From Xanthobacteraceae bacterium 501b (lineage in GTDB: Bacteria > Pseudomonadota > Alphaproteobacteria > Rhizobiales > Xanthobacteraceae), in assembly GCA_000378025.1 (NCBI GenBank), contig KB899087.1, forward strand, positions 2,356,001 to 2,420,000: a DNA stretch of 64,000 nt. Reading direction: 5' to 3'. Under the pieces are notes generated by a model. That model was not told the DNA's origin, made no database searches, and worked only from the letters and a program-made list of their open reading frames with translations. Each line of letters opens with the position of its first letter. The stretch's first letter is position 1. Both the position numbers and the translations under genes were made by a program. This document shows positions 13,541 through 16,702 of this stretch, in pieces.

Positions 13541-13566
13541 GGAACGCCCGATCGTCCTCATTCGTT
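13541..13566 (+). promoter_or_regulatory. EcfG-type (general stress sigma) promoter
   Basis: GGAAC at 13541-13545, a 17-base spacer and CGTT at 13563-13566 match the alphaproteobacterial EcfG consensus exactly. Transcription should begin near 13573. This makes the 13576 ATG almost leaderless and favours a start at 13591-13606 for the ROK-like gene downstream. Confidence 0.75.
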
Positions 13567-13605
13567 CTCGACACGATGAAGCGAGAGCGAATGGGAAGCA
13601 TGGGA

Positions 13606-14745
13606 ATGGCCAAGAGCGCAGCGCAGACCAAGAGCGCGGAGCACAAGACCAAGGAGACACCGCCGAATGTGGCGGTGCACGGCGCCGCCACGCTGACCGG
13701 CGTGACGGTGGATGCGTTCAACGCTCAGCTGCGCGACGAAGATGGCTTTATCGGCGACCGCGCCCGCCGCGCCGCCTTTTTCGAGATCTTCGACCGATGG
13801 CGTGATCTAGGCGACCGCAAGCTCTCAGTTCTCGGCGACACGCCGACAGCCGAGCTGTCCAAAACGGTGATCGACGACGCCCTGGCCAACGGCAAGCCGC
13901 ATGAGCAGGCCATCATCCACAGCGCCATCGAGGAATACGCCAACGAGCTGTTCGCCGTGCTCCGCCGTCTGCTGCGCAGCAAGGAATGGCGCGACACCCA
14001 GCGCGTCGTCATCGGCGGCGGGCTGAAGGCCGGCCGCTTCGCCGAGATCGCGGTGGCGCGGACGGAACTTCTGGCGCGTGCCGAGGGCATCGATATCGAG
14101 CTGCGTCCGATCCGGCACGAGCCCGACGAGGCCGGGCTGATCGGCGCGGCGCATCTCGCCCCAAGCTGGATGTTCACCAGCTTCGACAATATTCTGGCCA
14201 TCGACATCGGCGGCACCAACATTCGCTGCGGCATCGTCAGGCTCAACCTCGACAAGGCGGACGACCTCTCCAAGGCCCGCGTGCGCAGCTTCGAGCTGTG
14301 GCGCCATGGCGATGAAGAACCCAGCCGCGAGGAGGCTGTCGCAACGCTGGTCGGCATGCTGGAAAAGCTGATCGCACAGGCTAAGAAGGACGATCTGCGC
14401 CTCGCGCCCTTCATCGGCGTCGGGTGCCCCGGCTCGATCGCCGGCGACGGCACCATCGAGAATGGCGCGCAGAACCTTCCCGGCAACTGGCAGAGCTCGC
14501 GCTTCAACCTGCCCTCGGCACTATGGGAGGCCATCCCCTCCATCGCCGGCAACGAGACCACGGTGGTGATGCACAATGATGCCGTGGTGCAGGGGTTAAG
14601 CGAGGTGCCCTTCATGCAGGATGTCGCGCATTGGGGGGTGCTGACCATCGGCACCGGCCTTGGCAATGCCCGCTATACCAATCGCAAGCGCTCCACCGGC
14701 AAGGACAGGAGTGGGGGCGGCAAGATGTCGGGCGAGAAGGACTGA
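13606..14745 (+). CDS. ROK-like protein with apparently permuted domain order
   Basis: About 379 residues from the ATG at 13606, which has GGAAG at a good distance; ATGs at 13576, 13591 and 13600 are alternatives. ROK kinase motifs are all there but in swapped order. First come the usual C-terminal ones: YANELFAVLRRLL, VVIGGGLKAGR (GGG at 137-139) and DEAGLIGAAHLA (174-183). Then the usual N-terminal ones follow: LAIDIGGTNIRCGIV (DIGGTN 200-205), GVGCPGSI, MHNDAVVQG (Asp base at 325) and LTIGTGLGN (349-354). The chain ends soon after. The ROK zinc motif CxCGxxGC is missing. Substrate unknown. An EcfG promoter directly upstream implies stress induction. Confidence 0.8.
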   Translation: MAKSAAQTKSAEHKTKETPPNVAVHGAATLTGVTVDAFNAQLRDEDGFIGDRARRAAFFEIFDRWRDLGDRKLSVLGDTPTAELSKTVIDDALANGKPHEQAIIHSAIEEYANELFAVLRRLLRSKEWRDTQRVVIGGGLKAGRFAEIAVARTELLARAEGIDIELRPIRHEPDEAGLIGAAHLAPSWMFTSFDNILAIDIGGTNIRCGIVRLNLDKADDLSKARVRSFELWRHGDEEPSREEAVATLVGMLEKLIAQAKKDDLRLAPFIGVGCPGSIAGDGTIENGAQNLPGNWQSSRFNLPSALWEAIPSIAGNETTVVMHNDAVVQGLSEVPFMQDVAHWGVLTIGTGLGNARYTNRKRSTGKDRSGGGKMSGEKD

Positions 14746-14753
14746 GGTCAGCC

Positions 14754-15242
14754 TCAGCCCGGGGTGGGCGCCGGCCGCGGGCCGCGTTCCGCCTCGGGCT
14801 TGCCTAAGCGGCCGGTGGCGCGTCCGGCCGGCGCATCCGCTTCATCCTCGCCGCCCTCACGCTCACGGCGGGCGAGTTCTTCATATTCGCCGCGAATCTT
14901 CTCTAGCGCCCCATCGTCGAGCTCCTCCAGATCGAGCAGGACACGCCGCGTCCCCTCGGTCCGGGCGATCAGCTCGTCGATCTTGATGTGAAGCGCGGCC
15001 GTGTCCCGATTCTGGCTGTTCTGGATCACGAACACCATCAGGAAGGTGATGATCGTGGTGGAGGTGTTGATGATGAGCTGCCAGGTATCGCCGAAACCGA
15101 CAAAGGGCCCGGTGAGGGCCCACAGCACGATAAGACCCGCCGCGCCGGCAAAAGTCACCGGCTTGCCGGCCTGGGTCGATATCCACTGGGCGAAGCGGGT
15201 GAAATAGGAGCGCGTCGGCTTGCCACGGCTGCTGAGTGCCAT
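14754..15242 (-). CDS. Low-affinity iron permease family membrane protein
   Basis: A 162-residue protein of the Iron_permease (PF04120) family. Two membrane helices are evident (about residues 28-48, VTFAGAAGLIVLWALTGPFVGF, and 55-75, QLIINTSTTIITFLMVFVIQNSQNRD). The family hallmark QNSQNRDTAALHIKIDELI follows. The C-terminal 50 residues are charged and Pro/Ala-rich. Bacterial members are often stress-induced and iron transport by them is not proven. It lies 53 bases downstream of the DUF3008 gene and may share its transcript. Confidence 0.85.
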   Translation of the reverse strand: MALSSRGKPTRSYFTRFAQWISTQAGKPVTFAGAAGLIVLWALTGPFVGFGDTWQLIINTSTTIITFLMVFVIQNSQNRDTAALHIKIDELIARTEGTRRVLLDLEELDDGALEKIRGEYEELARREREGGEDEADAPAGRATGRLGKPEAERGPRPAPTPG

Positions 15243-15561: not shown

Positions 15562-16068
15562 TTATTCGGCAGCGTGCAGGTTGACACGGGCTTCCGCCAG
15601 CTTGGTCAGCTTGGCGTCCGTGGCTTTTTCCTCTTCGAGGTTCTTCGCCAGCACGCTGGCGCAGTCCGGCCGGCCCAGCAGCTTGGCCCAGGCGATGAGG
15701 GTGCCGTAGCGCGTCATCTCGTAATGCTCGACCGCCTGCGCCGCCGCGATCAGCGCGGCGTCCAGCACCTGCTTGTCCGCCACCTCGCCGGAGATTTCCT
15801 CGGCCTCGTCAACAATGCCGTCGATCGCCGGGCAGGTGACGGCCTTGGCCTCGACGCCATGCATCTTGAACACTTCCTCGACGCGAAGAATGTGGCCTTC
15901 GGTTTCAGACAGGTGCTTCTGGAAGTCAGCCTTGAGTTGAGGATCGCTCGCCTTCTCGATCATGTCGGGCAGCGACTTGGCGATCTTCTTCTCGGCATAA
16001 TAGATGTCGCGAAGCGTATGGACGAAGAGATCATCCATCGTCTTGATGTCCTTGGAGAACAGACCCAT
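15562..16068 (-). CDS. YciE-like ferritin-fold protein (DUF892)
   Basis: A 168-residue four-helix-bundle protein of the DUF892/YciE family. Conserved stretches include FVHTLRDIYYAEKKIAKSLP at the start, HLSETEGHILRVEEVF and AAAQAVEHYEMTRYGTL, which supply the Glu and His residues expected for a di-iron site. GGAGG lies eight bases before the ATG. Such proteins accumulate in stationary phase and stress; the activity is not settled. An EcfG-type promoter lies about 90 bases upstream. Confidence 0.9.
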   Translation of the reverse strand: MGLFSKDIKTMDDLFVHTLRDIYYAEKKIAKSLPDMIEKASDPQLKADFQKHLSETEGHILRVEEVFKMHGVEAKAVTCPAIDGIVDEAEEISGEVADKQVLDAALIAAAQAVEHYEMTRYGTLIAWAKLLGRPDCASVLAKNLEEEKATDAKLTKLAEARVNLHAAE

Positions 16069-16156
16069 GGTAAATTCCTCCATGTGAGATGGTATACGGG
16101 CGCCCTCTATTGCCAGGCACCGCACGCGGCGGATTTAGGCCGCGCTCTATCACATC

Positions 16157-16207: not shown

Positions 16208-16624
16208 TTACATCGGCGCGGGCACAGGGTCGCGCGGAGGAAGATCGATCGGCGGCGCGGTCGGCTCGTCGAGCGGCTCCTCGACCTCAGGGGTGATGTC
16301 CGGGTCCTGGTCGGGCGGCATCGCCGGCTCATCGATGCCCGGCTGCGGCCGATCCGGCGGCGGATCGCGCGGCGGCGTCGCCAGAACCGGAACGGCGCCC
16401 GCCCCCTGTTGCGGGGGCGGCGGGGCGGGCCAGGGATCACTGACATTGGGCGGAACAGGATCGCGGATCTCGGGGACGTCGGGATCATGCACCGGCGGCT
16501 GCACCGGATCGTGAATCGGTGCCGGGTCAGGGGTGGGGGGCGTGTCCGGCACCGGGTTCACATCCGGCATCGGCGGCACACCCGGCGAGCCGGGCGTTAT
16601 GGCGGCGGCCTGGCTGGGGATCAT
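16208..16624 (-). CDS. Proline/aspartate-rich hypothetical protein
   Basis: A 138-residue low-complexity protein, mostly Pro, Asp, Glu and Ala, with irregular repeats of the type P-x-x-D-P (VPDTPPTPDPAPIHDPVQPPVHDP). No signal peptide or membrane segment is visible and it is probably disordered. GGAGG lies ten bases before the chosen ATG. Support for a real gene comes from the ribosome binding site, the exact EcfG-type promoter upstream and the stress-island setting. I recognise no family. Confidence 0.6.
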   Translation of the reverse strand: MIPSQAAAITPGSPGVPPMPDVNPVPDTPPTPDPAPIHDPVQPPVHDPDVPEIRDPVPPNVSDPWPAPPPPQQGAGAVPVLATPPRDPPPDRPQPGIDEPAMPPDQDPDITPEVEEPLDEPTAPPIDLPPRDPVPAPM

Positions 16625-16658
16625 GGCGAACTCTCCTCCCGTTTTGCCTGTCAGGCTC

Positions 16659-16684
16659 AACGCCGCCCGCAGGCGGGGGGTTCC
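16659..16684 (-). promoter_or_regulatory. EcfG-type promoter for the proline-rich protein gene
   Basis: On the minus strand GGAAC (16684-16680), a 17-base spacer and CGTT (16662-16659), an exact consensus match. The start codon at 16624 leaves a leader of roughly 25-30 bases. Confidence 0.72.
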
Positions 16685-16702
16685 GGAGAGATGGCCCTGC
16701 CT

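Follow-up and report, generated by a model that had tools for sequence, protein, structure and literature searches.

A Candidate Circularly Permuted ROK Sugar Kinase in Alphaproteobacteria, with Possible Ties to Stress Trehalose Metabolism

The DNA considered here (the window) is a stretch of 64,000 nucleotides from Xanthobacteraceae bacterium 501b, and one of its genes almost certainly encodes a circular permutation of a ROK kinase, a conclusion with as much support as sequence analysis can give. Along the chain, the C-terminal lobe of the ROK fold (GGG, DEAGLIGAA) comes first and is followed by the N-terminal part (DIGGTN, NLPGNW, HND, GTGLGN). The permuted family is widespread in soil and plant-associated bacteria. 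Taken as a whole, the reading of the protein as a permuted ROK hexokinase, probably for glucose, that serves stress trehalose metabolism is the one we favor, with a probability somewhat better than even.

Gene and Motif Arrangement

The gene is an intact open reading frame of 379 residues, closed by a stop after codon 379. An alternative ATG lies upstream at 13576, and the start at 13606 is favored because a MAKSAA/MGKSAA beginning is common to the Ancylobacter homologues (L002-L005), homologue starts having been chosen by a simple nearest-ATG rule. The features of the locus are as follows.

13541..13566, + strand: EcfG-type (general stress response) promoter GGAAC-N17-CGTT, an exact site 65 bp before the start codon
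13606..14745, + strand: putative circularly permuted ROK-type sugar kinase, 379 aa (profiles, alignment, model)
13678..13785, + strand: new N-terminal segment, residues 25-60, proposed for the place after PHOSPHATE-2 (alignment, tree data)
13894..14160, + strand: ROK C-terminal lobe, placed first, residues 97-185 (profiles, profile-profile alignment, Foldseek)
14005-14022, + strand: adenosine motif VVIGGG, codons 134-139
14125-14160, + strand: final helix DEAGLIGAAHLA, codons 174-185
14161..14187, + strand: linker that joins the former C- and N-termini, residues 186-194 (cut-point scan)
14203..14220, + strand: DIGGTN, PHOSPHATE-1 motif, residues 200-205 (sequence, alignment)
14422..14436, + strand: GCPGS, residues 273-277 (sequence, alignment)
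14470..14490, + strand: QNLPGNW, presumed sugar-loop motif, residues 289-295 (sequence, alignment)
14572..14580, + strand: HND, residues 323-325, with the presumed catalytic Asp325 (sequence, alignment)
14644..14667, + strand: TIGTGLGN, PHOSPHATE-2 motif near the C-terminus, residues 347-354 (sequence, alignment)

The first-pass annotation had described this swapped order of ROK motifs; the codon positions are confirmed, and library profiles agree with it. The zinc motif CxCGxxGC occurs neither in the window protein nor in the family consensus, and the canonical Glu-x-x-His motif (EIGH) is also missing from the permuted protein. The new N-terminal segment contains six invariant residues (H25, N39, G47, F48, G50, and D51) and, judged from the alignment, may fill the place after PHOSPHATE-2 that EIGH and the zinc motif hold in canonical proteins. 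The residue equivalence is weak, and to name the residues that replace the two motifs is to guess. At the other end of the chain, a variable, low-complexity tail rich in Lys and Asp, of up to 40 residues, follows GTGLGN in many members (e.g., L021, L028, L031), and the tail of the window protein (14689-14742) has low confidence in the predicted model.

Sequence Evidence for Circular Permutation

Library profiles recognize the two halves of the protein in reversed positions. The Pfam ROK profile (PF00480) matches with 41.9 bits against a gathering cut-off of 22.9 and does so in two stretches, the better of which places residues 197-366 on profile positions 2-148. Among NCBIfam models, residues 97-185 match the C-terminal end (207-286 of 291) of an N-acetylmannosamine kinase (E 2.3e-5) and residues 197-369 match the start (1-152 of 318) of a ROK glucokinase (E 4.4e-6), both matches being weak and far below the curated cut-offs. 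The canonical order, in which DIGGT comes first and GGG/AGLIGAA last, is thus replaced by a rotated one, as in all 42 aligned sequences.

Rotation was examined by aligning a profile of 42 sequences (the window protein and 41 homologues) with ROK proteins from related genomes, comprising 14 canonical ROK rows and six rows of the PPGK-like group. In native order, hhalign matches the family profile to the ROK profile in two separate pieces, scoring 77.9 and 52.3 (P 1.7e-6 for the N-terminal half), whereas the rotated order gives a single match of 286 columns with a score of 108.1. With the combined ROK and PPGK-like profile the top score rises from 102.0 to 135.9. A scan of cut points against the ROK profile peaks at 112.4-113.7 for a cut at residues 186-194, declines on either side, and compares with 77.7 for the native order; against the combined profile the peak is 137-138 and the native value 101.9. 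Against the six PPGK-like rows by themselves, the alignment covers 136 columns in native and 238 in rotated order, while the score stays flat (92.3 vs. 92.4). A control, in which the halves of the canonical ROK alignment are swapped before comparison with the PPGK-like profile, shortens the alignment from 223 to 146 columns and keeps the score (124.0 to 123.8), meaning that so small a profile does not register the second half; the case for permutation therefore rests on the ROK and the combined profiles. The circular permutation read in the first-pass annotation is accordingly upheld by library profiles and by profile-profile alignment with and without rotation, including the cut-point scan.

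Relatives of the N-terminal half were also sought in 278 genomes of the class. Strong matches occur in 10 genomes, all at known loci of the permuted protein, together with two weak ones (E 0.002 in G475 and 0.006 in G297), and no canonical-order relative of this half was seen in that search.

Predicted Structure

Structure prediction, proposed together with the original reading, yields a confident AlphaFold2 model when the 42-sequence alignment is supplied (pLDDT 86.3, pTM 0.85). Foldseek, which aligns in sequence order, places the two-domain human hexokinase 2 at ranks 1, 2, and 4 of the full-length search, over 405-434 columns and with an rmsd of about 30 Å; we read this alignment as bridging the two repeats, from the latter half of one domain into the opening half of its successor. 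Most one-domain ROK kinases among the Foldseek rows shown have alignments of 161-176 columns with an rmsd of 2.0-4.7 Å; the best of them is 2yhy (166 columns, 2.0 Å), and one exception is 3lm2 (188 columns at 11.7 Å). Helices at about residues 55-95 are without a clear counterpart in ROK kinases.

Modelled alone, the N-terminal half reaches a pLDDT of 72, a moderate confidence. ROK kinases are its top seven Foldseek matches, an unrelated reductase is at rank 8, from which unrelated folds begin, and the ROK glucokinase of S. griseus (3vgk) is at rank 9 with a probability of 0.99 over 131 columns at 3.5 Å. All E-values are 0.024 or worse and the ROK matches among the first nine have an rmsd of 3.5-7.3 Å, and the result for this half is only supportive. 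Together with the matches to ROK C-terminal profiles, it runs against the possibility, raised at the outset, that residues 100-190 fold as an unrelated domain.

Distribution, Conservation, and Relatives of the Family

Members belong mainly to the Hyphomicrobiales, with others in the remaining Alphaproteobacteria and in five genomes outside the class. Scanning named genomes gives 27 loci, in Ancylobacter, Bradyrhizobium, Rhodoplanes, Methylobacterium, Bosea, Rhizobium, and several metagenome-assembled genomes, some of which are labelled Variovorax and Binatia. In overlapping samples, matches are present in 40 of 297 genomes of the order (fragments only in G227 and G230), in 12/289 of the class, and in 22/398 of the phylum, the five outside the class being among the last. 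Plasmid records contribute 206 matches in 72,556, mostly from Rhizobium and Sinorhizobium, and nearly all annotated plasmid rows shown read “ROK family protein,” apart from one glucokinase and two hypothetical proteins.

The swapped order and the kinase motifs are kept in 42/42 aligned sequences, the window protein included, which answers the question, posed by the first-pass annotation, of whether homologues conserve the order. N324, D325, and G349-G353 are invariant, and every row has DxGG[TS]N. The alignment leaves out 15 of the 57 fetched loci, of which 14 are near relatives of others and carry the same swapped order in a single open reading frame; such a frame is found in 56 of the 57, the exception (L026, the fifteenth locus left out) being split by unknown bases.

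A tree of 19 of the 42 aligned permuted sequences, six PPGK-like, and 14 canonical ROK proteins joins the permuted family into one clade (support 100/97) that groups with the PPGK-like proteins (99/98). Due to midpoint rooting, long branches, and few rows, the PPGK-like group is only tentatively the sister of the permuted family. The zinc motif is absent from all six PPGK-like rows as well, and these are in canonical order, so its loss may be older than the permutation and need not result from it. The earlier claim that the motif was lost at the new ends is therefore right about the absence, but its attribution to the new ends may not hold. Methanotroph polyphosphate glucokinases that phosphorylate glucose are likewise reported to be devoid of the ROK zinc motif (PMC6406325).

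The polyphosphate glucokinase model NF045942 is the best NCBIfam match of the permuted protein (residues 197-357), at 28 bits against a cut-off of 250. The genome of the window encodes a second ROK-like protein, which is PPGK-like (G000:C1:4214409-4214819, L100) and scores 110 bits against the same cut-off of 250. At a further locus (L106, G207:C1:4855423-4861798), a ROK gene that is in canonical order and lacks the zinc cysteines lies some 0.9 kb from a second gene of the otsB family, and a classical glucokinase is about 4.4 kb further on.

EcfG-Type Promoter

The kinase gene is preceded by a site of the form GGAAC-N16..18-CGTT, the sequence criterion for the EcfG regulon. When spacings of 15-18 bases are allowed, the window holds four EcfG-type sites against 1.2 expected, a number reached by 1 of 100 shuffles; the site at 13541-13566 stands above chance because it recurs upstream of homologues. 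In the 250 bp before the start, 21 of 55 distinct homologues carry such a site, whereas its frequency in the rest of the loci predicts 0.44. For matched 250-bp upstream stretches the count is 21/54 homologues (one dropped for its short flank) versus 12/622 neighboring ORFs, which were taken from a rough ORF caller, as were the neighborhood controls (Fisher p 2.6e-17, ignoring phylogeny). Six of the 21 homologues are from Ancylobacter and the rest from several other lineages, while the site is absent in 33/54, including those of Bradyrhizobium. Both plasmid homologues looked at, on S. meliloti pSymB and on a Phyllobacterium plasmid, also have it upstream. The exact EcfG promoter reported by the first-pass annotation is thus present, and is a recurrent feature of the family. 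A term search of the main text of the R. etli EcfG paper (PMC3892343) found neither a ROK protein nor a glucokinase.

A second exact EcfG-type site, at 16659-16684 on the minus strand, immediately precedes a proline-rich ORF (16559-16700) of about 140-150 aa that has no Pfam match; a relative of this ORF is found near the kinase gene in other Ancylobacter loci.

Gene Neighborhood and the Trehalose Link

The otsB gene family is found in 38 of the 40 order genomes with the permuted protein or a fragment of it, and in 155/297 in the order overall; the corresponding Fisher test (38/40 vs. 117/257, p 5.6e-10) ignores phylogeny and assumes that both 297-genome sets are identical. It is present in all 17 further genomes (two from the order, 10 from the class, and five from the phylum). 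In 11 of the 38 order genomes having both genes, otsB is located 167-706 bp from the kinase gene, with an adjacency limit of 710 bp and with one of the 11 (G227) having only a fragment of the kinase gene. The wider neighborhoods of nine of these 11 were fetched, and eight also hold OtsA (the GT20 trehalose-6-phosphate synthase) and a GH15 protein, with a PfkB kinase added in the otsB neighborhoods of one family. Pfam naming of representatives gave one each of OtsA, GH15, and PfkB plus a second OtsA, the GH15 protein having a trehalase-like N-domain. The ORF caller missed otsB in five of the 11 tabulated neighborhoods (L111, L113, L114, L115, and L116), for which a Pfam search was therefore used. 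On a Rhizobium leguminosarum plasmid otsB adjoins the kinase gene in divergent orientation.

Adjacency is limited to three sampled families of the order (f20, f2, and f24) and some rhizobia. The two genes are not adjacent in 27 of the 38 order genomes with both, the genome of the window among them, and adjacency was not seen in the 17 further genomes, which are drafts in which a contig end may hide a case. No neighbor is universal, and the trehalose link is present in a minority of lineages. In G117 (C1:4355422-4357239) and G196 (C9:35351-37114), where the permuted gene is located elsewhere, only about 0.2-0.3 kb separates a classical glucokinase gene (PF02685) from otsB, an arrangement that cooperation between otsB and a glucose kinase would predict.

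In the window, the neighbors of the kinase gene are an SDR dehydrogenase, an FGGY kinase, a DUF2934 protein, a low-affinity iron permease, and a DUF892 protein. As trehalose genes are not adjacent there, the trehalose link of the window gene is by homology only. The genes for the permease (PF04120) and the DUF892 protein are next to the kinase gene, at 14757-15242 and 15565-16125 (minus strand), and a permease relative (BLAST cluster) is placed between otsB and the kinase gene at L039/L110, which are one genome (G090). On S. meliloti pSymB, a neighbor (L148, 4663-5820) is annotated as the M42 peptidase of the osmoprotectant NAGGN system, another stress link.

Proposed Function and Alternatives

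The permuted protein is likely to be active as a kinase, and a role in glucose and trehalose metabolism is plausible. In the proposed arrangement, the old C- and N-termini are fused via the short linker (residues 186-194, as computed), and the new chain ends lie in the second lobe, directly behind the PHOSPHATE-2 hairpin, at a point that by computation corresponds to the place of the canonical zinc segment. The rotated chain would refold into the usual two-lobed kinase of the actin-like (ASKHA) type, with a hexose held between the lobes by HND and NLPGNW. A nucleotide or polyphosphate would be bound by DIGGTN, GTGLG, and GGG, and the sugar then phosphorylated. The most likely substrate would be glucose, freed from trehalose by the GH15 trehalase-like enzyme that is encoded nearby in several lineages, and the product, glucose-6-phosphate, would feed OtsA/OtsB. 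Transcription in many lineages would depend on EcfG, the sigma factor of the general stress response. The genome of the window also has a match to classical glucokinase besides its PPGK-like ROK protein, so glucose phosphorylation would be redundant there. A more specific version, in which a permuted glucokinase uses polyphosphate, alone or besides ATP, on trehalose-derived glucose during the EcfG stress response and so links polyphosphate and trehalose stores, the chain being opened at the zinc-segment place and the new N-terminus supplying sugar contacts, is speculative and given a low probability.

The permuted kinase could act on another substrate, such as a different hexose, an amino sugar, or a compound derived from trehalose, and the trehalose neighborhood would then be only lineage-specific. 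The varied surroundings of the gene agree with this: Ancylobacter has an SDR/FGGY-kinase cluster there, Bradyrhizobium a ribosomal L21/L27-like pair (names read from sequence), S. meliloti pSymB the peptidase annotated for the NAGGN osmoprotectant system, and Phyllobacterium tetronate genes; the first half, too, fits NCBIfam models of N-acetylmannosamine kinase. The co-occurrence and adjacency of otsB and the grouping with PPGK-like proteins favor glucose, however, and leave a non-glucose kinase rather unlikely. Many ROK proteins are regulators, and the missing EIGH and zinc motifs as well as the stress promoter could fit a stress-induced sugar or nucleotide sensor that keeps the kinase fold without catalysis. 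Set against the retention of the kinase motifs, including the presumed catalytic Asp, in 42/42 sequences, and the absence of a DNA-binding domain in a Pfam search of the 379-residue protein, a sensor is unlikely.

Two further alternatives dispense with permutation. If an unrelated N-terminal domain were joined to a truncated ROK N-lobe, the poor Foldseek statistics of the N-terminal half (no E-value below 0.02, rmsd of 3.5-7.3 Å) and its pLDDT of 72 would fit; but this half fits ROK C-terminal profiles (hhalign P 1.7e-6), its top seven Foldseek matches are ROK kinases, and rotation produces one continuous alignment. A fusion of unrelated domains, largely refuted by the conserved order in a single ORF and by the rotation test, is very improbable. 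An artefact of sequencing, assembly, or reading frame, for which no support was found, is refuted by the conserved homologues, the same order being present in one ORF in 56/57 fetched loci and in further genomes, and its probability is negligible.

Comparison with Known Systems

Natural circular permutations of whole enzymes that are conserved over many genera are uncommon. For the ROK branch of the hexokinase/actin superfamily we found no earlier account of one, although an account may exist elsewhere. The literature searched, with subscription journals mostly outside its scope, contained no description of a permuted ROK protein and none that ties such a protein to EcfG or otsB, in line with the first-pass annotation, which knew of no account. 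Permutation between families of the kinase fold group is discussed in one paper, in passages that do not concern ROK (PMC1079889). One ROK member, SMa2004, is listed as a transcription factor in another (PMC11387232).

The permuted ROK kinase would be a naturally rewired enzyme, whose genes often have a general-stress promoter in front of them or genes for trehalose synthesis next to them. The large size of the family (Rhizobium, Sinorhizobium, Bradyrhizobium, Methylobacterium, Bosea, Ancylobacter, and others) allows direct tests of how chain ends within a lobe relate to hinge closure and catalysis. A further gain is a candidate kinase for the stress and trehalose metabolism of Alphaproteobacteria, from a set of genes whose annotations, in the plasmid rows shown, nearly always read just “ROK family protein.”

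Three known systems are closest. Trehalose OtsA/OtsB modules with GH15 trehalase-like genes include several of the homologue genes within their clusters, whereas the window gene is not adjacent to such a module. We know of no described ROK kinase that is part of OtsA/OtsB-GH15 modules, and the literature search found no paper on one. ROK proteins resembling polyphosphate-glucose phosphotransferase (NF045942) share the absence of the zinc motif and group with the permuted family in the tree, yet they are in canonical order, and the permuted protein, by its score, is not an NF045942 member. With the ROK sugar kinases (PF00480; bacterial glucokinase, NagK/NanK), the permuted protein shares DIGGTN, NLPG.W, ND, GTGxG, GGG, and the final AGLIGAA helix. 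By contrast with them, its halves are rotated and it is without CxCGxxGC and EIGH.
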